From an uncultured bacterium (GTDB taxonomy: Bacteria; Bacillota; Clostridia; Lachnospirales; Lachnospiraceae), in contig CANDBT010000014.1 in NCBI GenBank assembly GCA_947383005.1, positions 35,984 through 99,983 on the forward strand: 64,000 nt of DNA. The letters run 5' to 3'. This document shows positions 24,821-46,883 of this stretch, one piece after another; the first letter of the stretch is position 1; each line of letters opens with the position of its first letter. Position numbers and translations under genes: made by a program. The notes under the pieces are model-generated. The model did no database searches, had not been told where the DNA came from, and was given only the letters and a program-made list of their open reading frames with translations.

Positions 24821-24830
24821 ATTCTCTGTA

Positions 24831-24902
24831 TGACCTCACCGGGAATCGAACCCGGGTTTACGCCGTGAGAGGGCGTCGTCTTGACCGCTTGACCATGAGG
24901 CC
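24831..24902 (-). tRNA. tRNA-Glu (anticodon CTC), copy 1
   Basis: 72 bases; acceptor GGCCTCA/TGAGGTC with one G-T pair, anticodon arm ACGCC-CTCTCAC-GGCGT giving CTC, T arm CCGGG-TTCGATT-CCCGG. Identical to the copy at 46684-46755. Confidence 0.95.
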
Positions 24903-24918
24903 ACAATAGCATAAAACA

Positions 24919-24992
24919 TCGAGGCGACAAGATTCGAACTTGCGGCCTCTGCGTCCCGAACGCAGCGCTCTACCAAACTGAGCCACGCCTCG
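24919..24992 (-). tRNA. tRNA-Pro (anticodon CGG), copy 1
   Basis: 74 bases; acceptor CGAGGCG/CGCCTCG, anticodon arm CTGCG-TTCGGGA-CGCAG giving CGG. First tRNA of the operon; identical to the copy at 46799-46872. Confidence 0.95.
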
Positions 24993-25003
24993 ACATCTCC
25001 TAT

Positions 25004-25032: not shown

Positions 25033-25061
25033 CAAATTTTTGCATTTCTCAAAAGTTGGGT

Positions 25062-25212
25062 GTAACAGTTCAGACGGCGGAGAATTTAACATGAATTTTG
25101 GGCGTCGAGCTTGCTTGTAAGCCCAAATTCATGTTAAATTCCACATCGGATGAATATCCGATGCTTCTTGTCCGGCGCAGGCGGGCAAGAAGATACCCGT
25201 CTGAACTGTTAC
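25062..25212. mobile_element. R2 long element P1 (MITE-like, 8-bp target duplication)
   Basis: 151-base element with terminal inverted repeats GTAACAGTTCAGACGG/CCGTCTGAACTGTTAC and perfect 8-base duplications AGTTGGGT at 25054-25061 and 25213-25220. Inside are three further hairpins: arms 25082-25103/25121-25141 around a 17-base loop (25104-25120), CATCGGAT/ATCCGATG and CTTCTTGTCCGGC/GCGGGCAAGAAG. No coding capacity. GTAA ends and 8-bp duplications are hallmarks of the IS66 family, so an IS66-like transposase may mobilise it (inference). Confidence 0.85.
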
Positions 25213-25278
25213 AGTTGGGTGTTTCGCTAGATATAATGCGGAAATGTTCTTATCTGTCATACATAAGTGCCTCTCCCT

Positions 25279-26538
25279 TTACATTAATCCGGGAATCAGC
25301 ATCGGTACATACAAAATCAGGAAAAACACTAAAATCAATCCCAACAAATATGGCACTACTGCTTTCGCAATTTTCTCAATCGGCAATCCTGTAATCCCCG
25401 AAGCGACAAAAAGATTAATTGCCACCGGCGGCGTAATCATACCAATGGCAATGCCTACTACGAACACGATGCCAAAATGAACAAGACTGATGCCCATCGC
25501 ATTAACCAAAGGCAAAAAGACCGGGGTAAGAATAATAATTGCCGAAGAAGTTTCCATAAATACACCGGCAATCAAAATAATCACGGCAATCAGCAACATG
25601 ATAATGTAAGGATTGCTAGAGACACTTAATACGGAACTGGAAATTGCTTCCGGTATTTTCCAGTTGGCCAGCACCCAGCCAAAAGGACCGCTGCAGGATA
25701 TAATAATCATAATGACGGCTGAAGTTTTCGCGCTGCCTTTCATTATATTAAATAATTCTTTGGGTCCCATATCCCGGTACACGAAAACCGATACTAAAAT
25801 AGCATAAATCACAGCTACATCTGCTGCCTCGGAGGGAGTAAAATATCCGGAAAAAATCCCGCCAAGGATGATCAGCGGCATCAAAATCCCCCAAATTGCT
25901 TTGGCGAAAGTTTTTGCCACATTTTTGATAGAAAAAGCGGCTCCTTTTGGATAATTCTGTTTATGTGCCTCAAATAAAGAAATGGCAATCAAAATCGCCC
26001 CCATCAATATCCCTGGCAAAAAACCGTTCTTAAACAGAGTATTAACACTTTGTTCGGCAATCACCGCATAAAGAACCATTGGAACTGAAGGCGGAATAAC
26101 TACGCCAATTGTCCCGGCAGCAGCAATCAATGCTGCAGATTTCGCTTCATCGTAACCTCTCTTTTTCAGTTCCGGAATTAATGTCGCACCTACTGCGGCA
26201 GTTGTCGCCGCACCGGAGCCGGAAATCGCCGCAAAAAACATGCCGGCCAAAACCGATACAATTGACAAACCGCCTTTAATCATTCCCAGCAACGCTTCCG
26301 CAAATTCCACCAATACCTTGGAAACCTTACCTTTGGCCATTAAATCGCCGGCAAAAATGAAAAACGGCACCGCAATCAGCGAAAACGAATCCGTAGCCGC
26401 AAACATCCGCTGCACCACCATTAACAGGGGTACTCCGCCCTTTGCCATGACTGCTACGGAGGACAGCACAATCGAAAAAGCTACAGGAACCCCCAACAGA
26501 AGCATGACAATAAAAGTAATAAACAACAACGCTGCCAT
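25279..26538 (-). CDS. dctM: TRAP transporter large permease DctM
   Basis: A 419-residue membrane protein of the TRAP large-subunit family with about 12 hydrophobic segments, opening FITFIVMLLLGVPVAFSIVLSS. Family blocks include PFFIFAGDLMAKGKVS, AISGSGAATTAAVGATLIPELKKRGYDEAKSAALIAAAGTIGVVIPPSVPMVLYAV and FMETSSAIIILTPVFLP. It moves a carboxylate with Na+ together with DctQ and DctP. The start at MAALLFIT, behind GGAAGGAGG, is 2 bases from the DctQ stop. Third gene of the T-box-led operon. Confidence 0.93.
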   Translation of the reverse strand: MAALLFITFIVMLLLGVPVAFSIVLSSVAVMAKGGVPLLMVVQRMFAATDSFSLIAVPFFIFAGDLMAKGKVSKVLVEFAEALLGMIKGGLSIVSVLAGMFFAAISGSGAATTAAVGATLIPELKKRGYDEAKSAALIAAAGTIGVVIPPSVPMVLYAVIAEQSVNTLFKNGFLPGILMGAILIAISLFEAHKQNYPKGAAFSIKNVAKTFAKAIWGILMPLIILGGIFSGYFTPSEAADVAVIYAILVSVFVYRDMGPKELFNIMKGSAKTSAVIMIIISCSGPFGWVLANWKIPEAISSSVLSVSSNPYIIMLLIAVIILIAGVFMETSSAIIILTPVFLPLVNAMGISLVHFGIVFVVGIAIGMITPPVAINLFVASGITGLPIEKIAKAVVPYLLGLILVFFLILYVPMLIPGLM

Positions 26539-26539
26539 G

Positions 26540-27037
26540 TTATGCTTCCCTCCTTCCAAACAGATGCACAAAACTCTGAATTACCGCATCCAGTGCGTGA
26601 AGAGCCATAATTCCACAGCCAATAGGAATACAGGTATAGATATAGCGCATTGGCAAACGCATGGCTGGCGAAAGCTGTTTTCCCTGTCTTCCAAAATACT
26701 GAATGCCATAATATACAATCAACACAAACAAAAAGCCGCAAAGCCCATGAATGATAATCCTCAGCATATCCTTTGCCTTACCAGGAAGACTATCCTGGAC
26801 GACGGAAATGGAAATATGGCCAGCATGCTTATATACACAACCAGCTCCCAACATTGTGCTCCAGATCAGCAAATACCGGGTCGCTTCCTCACTCCAGGCC
26901 AATGAAGTAAAAAAAATCCGGCAAATAATCTGCGCACCAGTGATAATCACCATCGCACCCAGCATAAATACGATTGCAGCTTCCATGACCTTATCCAATA
27001 TATCACTGAATTTATGAATACCATGAATAATAACCAA
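26540..27037 (-). CDS. dctQ: TRAP transporter small permease DctQ
   Basis: A 165-residue protein with four membrane helices, the usual DctQ layout (MEAAIVFMLGAMVIITGAQIICRI..., SEEATRYLLIWSTMLGAG, HISISVVQDSLPGKAKD..., then two more helices). Start codon TTG, 10 bases after GAAAGGGG. Stop is 2 bases before the DctM start, implying coupling. Works with DctM and the binding protein encoded upstream. Confidence 0.9.
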   Translation of the reverse strand: MVIIHGIHKFSDILDKVMEAAIVFMLGAMVIITGAQIICRIFFTSLAWSEEATRYLLIWSTMLGAGCVYKHAGHISISVVQDSLPGKAKDMLRIIIHGLCGFLFVLIVYYGIQYFGRQGKQLSPAMRLPMRYIYTCIPIGCGIMALHALDAVIQSFVHLFGRREA

Positions 27038-27160
27038 AATTGGATTCCCCTTTCGTAAATCGTCCTTAAATTTTCATGCTCCCGCAATCCGAAAACGCCT
27101 CAAATCCATTCGCTTTTCTGCGAAAAACGACTGCTCTTCGGTGTGATTGCCCCGCACTTT

Positions 27161-27215
27161 GCGCTCCTGCTTTGCTTCTCCTGCTTTGCTTCTCCTGCTT
27201 TTCTTCTCCGCTTTG
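27161..27215. repeat. Short tandem repeat in the dctP-dctQ spacer
   Basis: The 14-base unit CTTCTCCTGCTTTG occurs about two and a half times in direct array, giving a strongly skewed pyrimidine tract. No reading frame is supported; role unknown. Confidence 0.5.
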
Positions 27216-27250
27216 ATCGGCGCTGGGCAGGCATATCCGTCCATGACTTA

Positions 27251-27286
27251 CCCCATGGCCAATCACTTTGCCGATTAACCATGGGG
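27251..27286 (-). terminator. Intercistronic hairpin after dctP
   Basis: Perfect CCCCATGG/CCATGGGG stem 12 bases past the dctP stop, without a T-run. Such hairpins usually protect or partly terminate binding-protein messages so that the binding protein exceeds the permease. Confidence 0.55.
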
Positions 27287-27298
27287 CAATACCATTAT

Positions 27299-28399
27299 TT
27301 ATTGCATTTTCGCAATCACATCCTGGATTCTGGACACATAATCACTGTATTCGCTATACTGCTCATACACTGGCTGTACAGCCTCTTTGAACGACGCCAA
27401 ATCCGGTTCCTCGATTACTTCCATTCCATTATCTTTCAAAGCCTGAAGCTGGTCGCTTTCCTGCTCCGCCACCCATGCACGCTCATACTCCGCTGCCTCC
27501 TGCGCGGCATCCAGGAAAATTTGCTGTGTATCGGCATCCAGACTATCAAACAGGGAAGAACTCATCGTGATAATTGCTGTTGAATAGGAATGACGATCCA
27601 ACGTCACATATTTCTGAGACTCCCACAAACTATAAGAATAAATGACATTGATCGGATTTTCTTGTCCCTGGACGGTCCCCTGCTGAAGTGCGGTTAAAGC
27701 ATCAGCCCATGCCATAGGCGTGGCATTAACCCCCATCGCCTGAAAACTGGCAGTGTAAACGTCATTTTCCATAATGCGGATGGTCATTCCCTCTAAATCT
27801 GCCGCGCTTTCAATTGGCTTTACACTGTTGGTCAAATTACGGAAACCACGTTCTGCATAAGCCAGACCTTTAAGTCCGGATTCCTCCAAAGTATCCAAAA
27901 GTTCACGGCCGATTTCGCCGTCCAGCACGGCATAAGCCTCTTCATTGCTGGCAAACAGATAAGGCATATCCAACACACCCATATCGGAAGAGAAATTGAT
28001 AAACGGGCCGCTGGTGATAATTCCCATATCCAGAGTGCCAATCTGCATGCTTTCCAGCATATCACGCTCTCCTCCCAAAGTACCATTAGGATAAATCTCA
28101 ATGGCATACGCATTATTGGTACGCTCGGCAATCAGCTCGGCAAACTTTTCCGCCGCTACCTGGAAGCTGTCCTGCTCGTTGACAGTAGTCCCCAGTTTGA
28201 ATACCGTGGCGCCTTCCGGAGCCGCCTGCGTACCCTCGCCTGATTCCTCATTTGCCGCATCCGCTCCTGCGGCTGTTGTCCCTGCTGTTTCTGCAGATGT
28301 TGTTCCTGTACTTTGGCTGTCAGAAGAACCGCATCCGGTCATACCTAAAGCCAGCGCCGCCGATAATGCCAGCGCCACAATTTTTGTACTCTTTTTCAT
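27299..28399 (-). CDS. dctP: TRAP transporter substrate-binding lipoprotein DctP
   Basis: A 366-residue binding protein. Lipoprotein signal IVALALSAALALGMTGC, then an Ala/Thr/Glu-rich linker to residue 60. The DctP domain begins TVFKLGTTVNEQDSFQVAAEKFAELIAERTNN and includes GGERDMLESMQIGTLDMGIITSGP, NLTNSVKPIESAADLEGMTIRIMEN and the signature MAWADALTALQQGTVQGQENP. The conserved Arg of IRIMEN binds the ligand carboxylate in this family. Transcribed from a T-box leader, which suggests that the cargo relates to an amino acid. Confidence 0.92.
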   Translation of the reverse strand: MKKSTKIVALALSAALALGMTGCGSSDSQSTGTTSAETAGTTAAGADAANEESGEGTQAAPEGATVFKLGTTVNEQDSFQVAAEKFAELIAERTNNAYAIEIYPNGTLGGERDMLESMQIGTLDMGIITSGPFINFSSDMGVLDMPYLFASNEEAYAVLDGEIGRELLDTLEESGLKGLAYAERGFRNLTNSVKPIESAADLEGMTIRIMENDVYTASFQAMGVNATPMAWADALTALQQGTVQGQENPINVIYSYSLWESQKYVTLDRHSYSTAIITMSSSLFDSLDADTQQIFLDAAQEAAEYERAWVAEQESDQLQALKDNGMEVIEEPDLASFKEAVQPVYEQYSEYSDYVSRIQDVIAKMQ

Positions 28400-28477
28400 A
28401 ATTATCCATCCTCCTAAATGATAAATAATAATCTATTGTCATCTGTCATGGTAAAATAACAGAAATGACCTTCTCCT

Positions 28478-28824
28478 GCAAAACAAAAACAGCCCTTGTC
28501 CCAAGAGACAAAAGCTGAATTCTTCTGCGGTACCACTCTTATTGCTGCCATCATGACAGCCTCTCATTCCCGTCAGCCACAATAATGGCCTAACAGGCGG
28601 TGCAGTAACGGACACCTGCCGATCCAACCTACACAAACAACATTCGTCACTCTTCAGCCGGACTGCTCAAAGGCGATTTTCCCGAAAACCCAGCCACTGT
28701 GTTACACCACCCCACAGCTCTCTGCAGACCTCGTAATCGGTACTCTTCCTTATCAACACATTTCTCTGTGAAATTCTGCTAACTCTTCCGTCAACCACTC
28801 GAACGATTCAAACGGCCGGAAATT
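28478..28824 (-). promoter_or_regulatory. T-box leader controlling the TRAP transporter operon
   Basis: The minus strand carries the T-box core AAGAGTGGTACCGCA (28526-28540), the AG-bulge motif AGAGAGC (near 28720), the AGTA element in GAAGAGTACC (near 28740) and a GCCTTTGAGCAG segment (near 28668). An intrinsic terminator follows (28478-28516). These are the parts of a tRNA-sensing T-box. The triplet after CTGAA (GAG, near 28650) is one specifier candidate, but the fold was not computed. Uncharged tRNA should favour read-through into dctP. Confidence 0.85.
28481..28516 (-). terminator. T-box terminator hairpin
   Basis: Stem AGCTTTTGTCTC/GGGACAAGGGCT followed by GTTTTTGTTTTG; the competing structure to the T-box antiterminator. 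Confidence 0.8.
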
Positions 28825-28830
28825 ATTGTT

Positions 28831-28859
28831 ATCATAACTCTGTCAAAATCATTTGTCAA
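28831..28859 (-). promoter_or_regulatory. Promoter of the T-box/TRAP operon
   Basis: Minus-strand TTGACA, 17-base spacer, TATGAT; near-consensus and correctly placed about 90 bases before stem I. Confidence 0.85.
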
Positions 28860-28893
28860 TAGAGAGTTTTATTTGCAAGCCAAAACATATGGC

Positions 28894-29049
28894 AAATCAG
28901 TTACTGCTCACGGAGGCGCATCTTCTTGCCCGGCTACGCCGGACAAGAAGCATCGGGCGTCCGCCCGATGGGGAAAACCGGGTAAAAACAGGCTTACAAG
29001 CAAGCTTGACGCCTGTTTTTACCCGGTTTTCCCCGCCCTGTGAACTGTT
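28894..29049. mobile_element. R2 long element P2
   Basis: Same architecture as P1 in the opposite orientation: a diverged left end (GTTACTGCTCACGG), CTTCTTGCCCGGC/GCCGGACAAGAAG, CATCGGGCG/CGCCCGATG, then perfect 24-bp arms (28970-28993 and 29011-29034) around the loop TTACAAGCAAGCTTGAC, and the right end TGAACTGTTAC. The arm sequence is unrelated to that of P1. No target duplication is visible. It ends 4 bases past the stop of the lipoprotein gene. Confidence 0.8.
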
Positions 29050-29053
29050 ACCG

Positions 29054-29587
29054 TTAAATAATCAATTCTCTTAAGCGGTGAATAAAATCCTCCCACCCGT
29101 CAGGATAATGAGTCGCGCCATATTCGCGATAATATCCTTTATCATAATCAACAGAAAAATCGAATAATTCAATCATAGTGCAGTAATTGTCGGTTTCCGG
29201 CCAATACGGATTTCCCTCATAAACGGTCAGCGCATATTCAGAAATCAGAGTATTTAACTGCTCAACTTGTGTATCATCCAAATAATATGTTTCCGTTCTC
29301 TGGCGGGGAATCCAAACAGAAACGACAGCATCTTCCAGATCAATCGTGTACCGATCGGCGTCATGGGGACTGATTTGCTCAAACCTGTTTTCAATAACCG
29401 CTCTTGTCACTGAAGGCGCCTTGCGCAGCTCTTCTAATTTTTCCCGTTCCGAATCAGATTCACTCTCTGCCCGGCCCGCTTCCTCTCCTGTCATCTCGGA
29501 AGCGCTCAAAGGAGGATTTTCTTTCTTCCCGCAGGCCGTCAAAACCAGAATCATAACTGCCATACCGATTAGAATACTCTTTTTCAT
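29054..29587 (-). CDS. Small lipoprotein of unknown function
   Basis: 177 residues. Lipoprotein signal MKKSILIGMAVMILVLTACG, then a charged Glu/Ser linker (about 25-58), then a domain of about 115 residues with aromatic-rich strands (VVSVWIPRQRTETYYLDD, CTMIELFDFSVDYDKGYYREYGATHYPDGW). I do not recognise the family. The gene lies 14 bases after glucose-6-phosphate isomerase but has only a poor ribosome site (CCTGG), so it may depend on read-through. Its 3' end abuts an R2 element. Confidence 0.7.
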   Translation of the reverse strand: MKKSILIGMAVMILVLTACGKKENPPLSASEMTGEEAGRAESESDSEREKLEELRKAPSVTRAVIENRFEQISPHDADRYTIDLEDAVVSVWIPRQRTETYYLDDTQVEQLNTLISEYALTVYEGNPYWPETDNYCTMIELFDFSVDYDKGYYREYGATHYPDGWEDFIHRLRELII

Positions 29588-46683: not shown

Positions 46684-46755
46684 TGACCTCACCGGGAATC
46701 GAACCCGGGTTTACGCCGTGAGAGGGCGTCGTCTTGACCGCTTGACCATGAGGCC
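46684..46755 (-). tRNA. tRNA-Glu (anticodon CTC), copy 2
   Basis: Identical over 72 bases to the gene at 24831-24902. Confidence 0.95.
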
Positions 46756-46798
46756 GTACCATTAAATATTTGCTTATCTTCTATACATTTGCAGGAAA

Positions 46799-46872
46799 TC
46801 GAGGCGACAAGATTCGAACTTGCGGCCTCTGCGTCCCGAACGCAGCGCTCTACCAAACTGAGCCACGCCTCG
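46799..46872 (-). tRNA. tRNA-Pro (anticodon CGG), copy 2
   Basis: Identical over 74 bases to the gene at 24919-24992; first tRNA of the second operon. Confidence 0.95.
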
Positions 46873-46883
46873 ACACCTTGTTT

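Follow-up and report, generated by a model that had tools for sequence, protein, structure and literature searches.

The window analysed here, a 64,000-nucleotide stretch of DNA from an uncultured Lachnospiraceae bacterium, holds two related elements, P1 and P2, which by their sequence are members of subfamilies A and B, respectively, of one large, non-autonomous, MITE-like mobile family. A mobility signature, a high copy number, covariation, a conserved hairpin apex, a gradation of forms inside each subfamily and recombinant copies are all observed. The element is best read as a structured RNA, or a DNA hairpin, that is carried by a transposon. We consider it probable that this MITE-like element of about 150 bp with three hairpins is under selection for pairing and apex in its mobile copies, and that its arms drift by paired changes and are swapped by recombination.

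As the preliminary description reported, P1 and P2 lie in opposite orientation and have in common their ends, a CTTCTTG hairpin (H1), a CATCGG hairpin (H2) that differs on both sides between them, and a 17-base loop identical at 16 of 17 positions, which caps a third hairpin (H3) with a stem of about 23 bp (Table 1). The span first given for P1 (25062–25212) stands, whereas that for P2 (28894–29049) is corrected to 28900–29051. The arms of P2 pair perfectly; those of P1 do carry a bulge, but the single bulged base is not their sole flaw, as there are mismatches at the ends too. The arms have indeed changed between the elements, but to call them completely different was an overstatement: they agree in length and register, and a comparison of P2 with a typical copy of subfamily A (L023) finds 11 of the 23 base pairs in common and 12 different. 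Both elements fold far more stably than their shuffles (z −11.4 to −12.3, with P2 taken at its uncorrected ends, 28894–29049).

Table 1. Positions of P1, P2 and their parts in the window.
Feature	Position	Strand	Basis or remark
P1, whole element, subfamily A	25062..25212	- (strand reading TTACAAGC, hairpins H1-H2-H3)	R1 match C14:61056-61148 minus; ends and duplication
P1 left target-site duplication AGTTGGGT	25054..25061	.	sequence; shuffled-partner control
P1 right target-site duplication AGTTGGGT	25213..25220	.	
P1 terminal inverted repeat GTAACAGTTCAGACGG	25062..25077	+	
P1 terminal inverted repeat, opposite end	25197..25212	-	
P1 H3 arm, one base bulged	25080..25103	.	
P1 17-nt loop, minus strand TTACAAGCAAGCTCGAC	25104..25120	-	apex G-CUUG-C on plus strand; predicted fold
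P1 H3 second arm	25121..25143	.	
P1 H2 hairpin (CATCGG)	25144..25163	.	predicted fold
P1 H1 hairpin (CTTCTTG)	25164..25192	.	predicted fold
P1 sub-threshold match to RF01699 (Clostridiales-1 RNA)	25072..25202	+	full model length, 39.4 bits vs cut-off 48, E 2.4e-6
P2, whole element, subfamily B	28900..29051	+	R1 match C14:64932-65023 plus; without target duplication
P2 left terminal inverted repeat	28900..28915	+	
P2 right terminal inverted repeat	29036..29051	-	
P2 H1 hairpin	28922..28950	.	predicted fold
P2 H2 hairpin	28951..28970	.	predicted fold
P2 H3 arm	28971..28993	.	pairing perfect
P2 17-nt loop TTACAAGCAAGCTTGAC	28994..29010	+	
P2 H3 second arm	29011..29033	.	

That the element is mobile, as had been surmised, appears from the sequences of its copies, namely from their target-site duplications and number. 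The R1 model has 119 matches in this genome, obtained by scoring 150 of 2703 first-look candidates, and 3 of these are reverse-strand repeats of other matches. High copy number, a near-constant short length (mostly 147–156 bp in the copies listed), 16-bp terminal inverted repeats and a target-site duplication of fixed length (8 bp), all features by which MITEs are recognised, are found here. An exact 8-bp duplication flanks P1, and P2 has none. Among 100 copies the duplication is exact in 33, has one mismatch in 22 and two in 11, hence 66 of 100 within two mismatches, against a chance level with shuffled partners of 0.5, 1.2 and 4.2 (about 6 in total). These 100 are the copies with recognised ends in a set of 162 sequences, which was assembled from 114 of 149 matches of one search (lowest score 43.8 bits; among the remainder, many are opposite-strand matches of kept copies), 35 of 64 matches of a second (59 bits or more) and, from the 39 rows of A1, a further 21, after which identical sequences were merged. 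Collecting loop-bearing elements, a check proposed at the outset, yielded 61 exact copies of the 17-base loop in the genome (none for the reversed-pattern control) and 65 Clostridia contig stretches with the loop, in which the arms are mostly different and mostly paired. Model matches occur in 63 of 299 genomes of the bacterial family, many of them weak and of the kind that any good hairpin can give; one cultured relative has at least 14. An assembly artefact or chance palindromes, in favour of which it can be said only that the genome is a draft of 136 contigs, are refuted by the 119 matches, the exact duplications and the occurrence in other genomes, and we give this reading practically no weight.

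What moves the element? Derivatives of about 44 bp that lack H3 occur, one of which (L285) has an exact duplication, so H3 may be dispensable for movement. An autonomous transposon with the same ends was not found in 1.08 Mb of loci, where pairs of ends with a duplication gave short forms only, nor was an autonomous relative among the matches listed in further searches. Viral contigs searched for the loop, and records of phages and plasmids searched for one element of subfamily A, gave no match. The IS66 family is a possible mobiliser, as 8-bp duplications and GTAA-type ends are likewise seen in its relatives (GTAAG ends in L298, L300 and L306). GTAAC-GTTCAGACGG ends were not seen in any of 31 IS66 loci, including both of this genome, among which ends flanked by a duplication could be recognised in a few only. 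Literature searches joining IS66, MITE and Lachnospiraceae, or based on the loop or end sequences, found nothing, and others led to related topics only.

Bacterial MITEs such as bcr1, ERIC, RUP and BOX are elements of 100–200 bp with inverted ends and a target duplication, mostly intergenic and strongly folded. The present family differs in that its long hairpin keeps apex and length while nearly every arm pair varies between subfamilies. The apex of H3 is strongly conserved, reading CAAG-CNAG-CTTG on one strand and G-CUNG-C on its complement. Of 159 loops, 136 have an exact GCNAGC core and 4 have T at position 10; the first searches in part presupposed a conserved loop. A 4-bp mini-stem within the loop has all its pairs in 133 of the 159 and is sometimes changed on both sides (TTATAAGCAAGCTTAAC). 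Stem length and register of H3 are near constant across copies. Wobble counts on the loop strand (AC 194, GT 149, from copies that are not independent) lean weakly and single out no strand strongly.

Within this nearly constant frame the arms vary in concert. Both-side changes occur at 21 of the 23 arm pairs, and the covariation score of 0.659 compares with 0.168 for shuffles, 0 of 500 of which reach it. Subfamilies A and B each contain graded arm forms and single compensated pair changes, and doubly compensated cells inside the subfamilies number 42 and 34 against 8 and 8 expected if independent, partly through shared descent. The claim that ordinary mutation is excluded was therefore too strong. 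In a minimum spanning tree of the 100 elements that have 20 or more of the 23 pairs, the step from A to B (L014 to L241) comprises 5 compensated changes and 5 positions with one partner unpaired, and no close A–B intermediate was found on the tree. Since this smallest step still alters 10 of 23 positions, drift is shown inside the subfamilies only. Divergence of the loop within the subfamilies (0.038 and 0.035) resembles uncompensated change in the arms (105 of 2320 and 69 of 1466 sites, about 0.045 and 0.047), which fits decay of inserted copies and selection on a mobile source. The ends of subfamily B are more variable (0.14–0.16) than its loop, and decay is thus uneven across the element.

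How do paired changes arise? Among the short edges of the tree (3 or fewer changes) they comprise 26 transversions and 19 transitions, against 47 and 127 for changes that are not compensated (p 1.7e-4, or 0.0018 when the bulge zone is left out), so a simple wobble route is disfavoured. The difference counts in favour of template switching during replication, which would copy one arm onto the other (quasipalindrome correction); complementarity would then stem from the mechanics of mutation and not from selection on the fold, a possible account to which we give less credence than to selection. Arm-to-arm copying is proposed for multi-base compensatory stem change by Monttinen and Loytynoja (2022; PMC8794818), where it is described for RNA genes, whereas the hairpins here belong to a mobile element family in which we see no inverted loops. 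Such loops, which template switching might leave behind, numbered 0 against 119 forward under a strict pattern, but that study describes them as rare too. Further points weigh against template switching: clustering of changes is weak (p 0.08), many copies retain arm mismatches, the transversion excess is not significant on one-change edges without the bulge zone (p 0.20), and the mechanism accounts neither for the conserved apex nor for a stem length that is kept from genome to genome. Gene conversion, raised in the preliminary description, or template switching between the arms may be at work, with the transversion-rich changes in its favour and the lack of inverted loops against it.

Both arms can also be replaced by exchange between copies. 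Seven of 111 copies of this genome have both arms of one type in a backbone that belongs, wholly or in part, to the other, which bears out the claim that the arms change together and can both be replaced at once; these seven recombinants keep both arms matched, and one recombinant split at the loop has unmatched arms. Snap-back capture, in which a new arm is taken from elsewhere in the genome and copied back into a perfect hairpin in one step, would suit the three different arms of elements L134, L146 and L150 in genome G018, the arms of some copies that are unique in the genome (L043), and the missing close intermediate between A and B. We regard it as very unlikely given the single paired changes within subfamilies and the near-constant stem length and register. 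The proposed search of arms against the same genome, carried out for two of them (P2 and L043), also found no donor outside the family: the P2 arm occurs within 3 mismatches at 28 places, 25 in model matches and 3 that we read as family remnants or an element at a contig end, and the unusual arm of L043 retrieves only its own two arms. Selection on mobile copies probably keeps pairing and apex instead, as folded RNA or folded DNA, and copies would decay after insertion; the arm sequence, being free, would drift by paired replacements, which may themselves come from arm-to-arm template switching, and would jump when recombination between copies exchanges a hairpin.

The known system closest to these elements is Clostridiales-1 RNA (Rfam RF01699; Weinberg et al, 2010; PMC2864571). 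The alignment with P1 and the predicted folds agree in a closing stem, a long hairpin and two further hairpins, in the same order and on the same strand; the model caps its long stem with GCUUGC, and GCUCGC also occurs in copies of both. RF01699 too has many copies in this genome, 27 above cut-off. In contrast, P1 scores 39.4 bits where the gathering cut-off requires 48, a match that is lost with a 191-base input and absent from the genome search matches listed, and neither P2 nor any of 20 other element loci matches. The places of RF01699 in the genome overlap no R1 places, and its closing stems are TGATACC or of the CTATGAAAG type as opposed to the GTAAC ends of our elements. Some RF01699 places show exact flanking repeats of 5–6 bp.

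Alternatively, the element could be a small RNA or attenuator that serves the host, truly of the Clostridiales-1 kind, and its dispersal would then be secondary. This would be in keeping with the strand and layout of P1 and with gene context: between tandem genes, the inferred RNA strand runs along the genes in 39 cases and against them in 20 (p 0.018; crude ORF calls placed 101 of the 122 elements whose loci span 1000 bases or more). It is nonetheless unlikely, as the loop and the arms of inserted copies decay about equally fast, the copy number is high with 8-bp duplications, and RF01699 matches 0 of the 20 further loci. A more speculative proposal, which we put forward tentatively, is that a single structured module, made up of a long hairpin capped by G-CUNG-C and two smaller ones, may sit in two unrelated mobile frameworks of this genome, one with GTAAC ends and 8-bp duplications, the other (Clostridiales-1) with TGATA ends and possible 5-bp duplications. 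Its arms would be free through arm-to-arm DNA copying rather than pair-by-pair selection, and only apex and stem length would be recognised, perhaps by a protein of the mobile system that binds RNA or hairpins.

The family has more than 100 copies in this genome, with others in relatives, and every copy records how a long hairpin stays paired during sequence turnover. The long-standing question of stepwise compensation versus template-switch correction is directly testable in copies that are marked by target duplications. Finally, our findings suggest that relatives of Clostridiales-1, a candidate RNA family of unknown function, are mobile elements.

The likeness between P1 and P2, the two elements in the window, is genuine and no artefact. 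As first described, they lie in inverse orientation and have in common their inverted ends, two short hairpins (H1, CTTCTTG; H2, CATCGG) and a long stem, H3, of about 23 bp around a 17-base loop that is identical at 16 of 17 positions. The four folds of P1/P2 tried have energies 11.4 to 12.3 standard deviations under shuffles. The finding is more ordinary than first stated: it is a family of structured mobile elements that covaries strongly and is akin in layout to the known RNA family Clostridiales-1 (RF01699).

Features of the window, with P1 (subfamily A) and P2 (subfamily B)
Feature	Positions	Strand	Remark
P1	25062-25212		Opposite orientation to P2
P2	28900-29051		Opposite orientation to P1
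Open reading frame	29054-29587		Stop end 2 bases from P2 end
tRNA-Glu/tRNA-Pro pair	24830-24993		Adjoins P1
tRNA-Glu/tRNA-Pro pair	46684-46873		Same anticodons, same strand as first pair
T-box leader	28501-28765	minus	Between P1 and P2, just upstream of next entry
Open reading frame	27299-28399
18-bp repeat	27164-27209		Three copies, 14-base spacing (CTCCTGCTTTGCTTCTCC)

The loop-bearing elements form a family rather than a pair. The exact loop occurs 61 times in the 5.0-Mb genome that contains the window (the pattern read backward, never), and R1, a covariance model built from an alignment of 39 elements, finds 119 matches at E <=0.001 (150 scored of 2703 candidates), three of them the opposite strand of other matches. 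An exact 19-base pattern is present in 13 of 145 relatives, this genome included. In a collection with one genome per species, a 21-base pattern marks 65 contig stretches, titled Lachnospiraceae, Clostridiaceae, Enterocloster, Hungatella and other Clostridia. Across these stretches the loop is constant and the arms differ, pairing in most but not all; H1 and H2 are kept in most, and rumen types carry different hairpins at those places. The loop pattern was not found in viral contigs, a single A element used as query matched nothing among plasmid or phage records, and searches of one literature library returned no paper for the loop or end letters, or for IS66, MITE and Lachnospiraceae jointly.

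The mobility signature is an 8-bp duplication. Ends could be read in 100 elements, drawn from this genome and from others, those listed being mostly 147-156 bp long. The two 8-bp flanks are identical in 33 of them, while 22 show one mismatch and 11 show two, against 0.5, 1.2 and 4.2 for shuffled partners; widths of 7 and 9 give no comparable signal. P1 has exact copies of AGTTGGGT on both sides, but P2 lacks a flanking duplication. IS66 transposons of relatives can have GTAAG ends and 8-bp duplications (loci L298, L300, L306); none of the 31 IS66 loci scanned showed family-like ends, most have no recognised ends, and no autonomous element with family ends is among the matches listed. Derivatives of about 44 bp, little beyond two ends (L285 276-319, L327 from 276, L281, L283, L287, L289, L291; exact 8-bp duplications at L285 and L327), have the look either of a deletion that recurred between CCGTCT repeats or of another mobile form. 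A further set of elements, reaching about 200 bp (L282, L291, L292, L023 2069-2261), resembles the family at the ends (GTTACTGTTCAC or GTAACTGTTCAG) but not in the interior and is possibly mobilised by the same enzyme. A separate repeat (GAGGGCGGAAATAGCGAGTGCCGAATTCACCGG...) adjoins some elements and sits at a contig start (L250, L267, L327).

How can both arms of a stem change and stay paired? The arms had been called unrelated; a typical A copy differs from P2 at 12 of 23 pairs. The 111 copies in this genome comprise 51 A-like, 32 B-like and 28 others. Across the 39 aligned sequences both partners vary at 21 of the 23 H3 pairs, many of them via three or four pair types, and the covariation score is 0.659 versus 0.168 for shuffles. 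Compensated double cells number 42 in A and 34 in B, where independence predicts 8 and 8, with 11 and 8 distinct states. The minimum spanning tree that links 100 well-paired elements has 47 edges free of compensated change, 15 with a single one and 37 with two to eight. The path from P1 to P2 takes at most three compensated changes per step inside A and inside B; the step that joins them, from L014 to L241, involves five, plus five positions at which one of the two elements is unpaired. Graded change is therefore shown within subfamilies only, not across the A-B gap. At the loop-proximal end of A, where a C is already bulged, a single mutation would suffice for some changes.

Part of the original claim, that both arms are replaced together, stands as a possibility through recombination between copies. 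When ends, H2 and arms were each scored A or B, seven copies (L013, L056, L057, L060, L238, L244, L249) combined two arms of a single type with one or more flanks of the opposite type; in L249 the difference is at the left end alone, and for L056 and L060 no call could be made at the left end. L053 joins a left A arm to a right B arm, and tandem copies (e.g. L026, L121, L014) have common left and different right arms, as unequal crossing-over at the loop would yield. Recombination can therefore replace both arms simultaneously. In L036 and L044 the H1 sequence has multiplied, left of H2, into a short tandem array of CTTCTTGCCC...GGGC units.

For paired changes, transitions should dominate under a wobble route. 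Arm-to-arm template switching, which need not favour them (PMC8794818), would fit the short tree edges, where paired replacements comprise 26 transversions and 19 transitions versus 47 and 127 for uncompensated changes. However, none of 119 loops is inverted, clustering of changes is weak (p 0.08), and once the bulge zone is set aside, the transversion excess on edges with one change is not significant (7 transitions, 6 transversions, p 0.20).

Three signs weakly favour the TIR-H3-H2-H1-TIR strand (TIR, terminal inverted repeat). Loop-strand mismatches are more often AC (194) than GT (149), with 16 each for H3 alone in the 39-sequence set; this strand runs along the genes in 39 of 59 tandem-gene copies; and P1 on it scores 39.4 bits against RF01699, below the cut-off of 48. 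That match vanishes when the submitted stretch is limited to 191 bases, P1 is missing from the matches listed when the genome was searched with RF01699, and no match appears at 20 other element loci. In all, that search gives 47 matches, 27 of them above the cut-off and none overlapping R1 places. The 25 Clostridiales-1 loci read have closing stems other than those of the family, and in most the long stem is capped by GCUUGC or GCUCGC. R1 reaches 37.3 bits at most on their long hairpin, by itself no proof, since the reverse strands of its own elements reach 39.5. Because of the 27 matches over cut-off, several in tandem and some bordered by exact repeats of 5-6 bp (L334-L353), Clostridiales-1 may likewise be mobile; four (L334, L335, L336, L341) of eight TGATACCA-start loci have the repeat at the same ends, an uncontrolled count, and L347 has one, but at another end. 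In the 2010 paper (PMC2864571) the table line for Clostridiales-1 reads y, n, n, and its main text lacks 'mobile' and has 'transpos' once, inside another motif's name.

Within the loop lies a 4-bp mini-stem, which pairs fully in 133 of 159 17-base loops. Of these loops, 136 retain GCNAGC, 21 depart at position 9 and 4 at position 10; paired changes of the mini-stem occur as TTATAAGCAAGCTTAAC in three loops and TTATGTGCAAGCACAAC in L237, a weaker match (59 bits). On the other strand the apex reads G-CUNG-C, a CUUG-type tetraloop in which any base may stand third. Per-site divergence from consensus in A is 0.038 in the loop and 0.053-0.061 in ends and H1, with uncompensated arm change at about 0.045 (105/2320 sites). 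B has 0.035 in the loop, 0.14-0.16 in the ends, 0.10 in H1 and 0.047 for uncompensated arm change; its high end and H1 values may partly reflect subfamily structure. We infer that inserted copies mostly decay, and that the apex and the pairing are required at the time the element moves or is copied.
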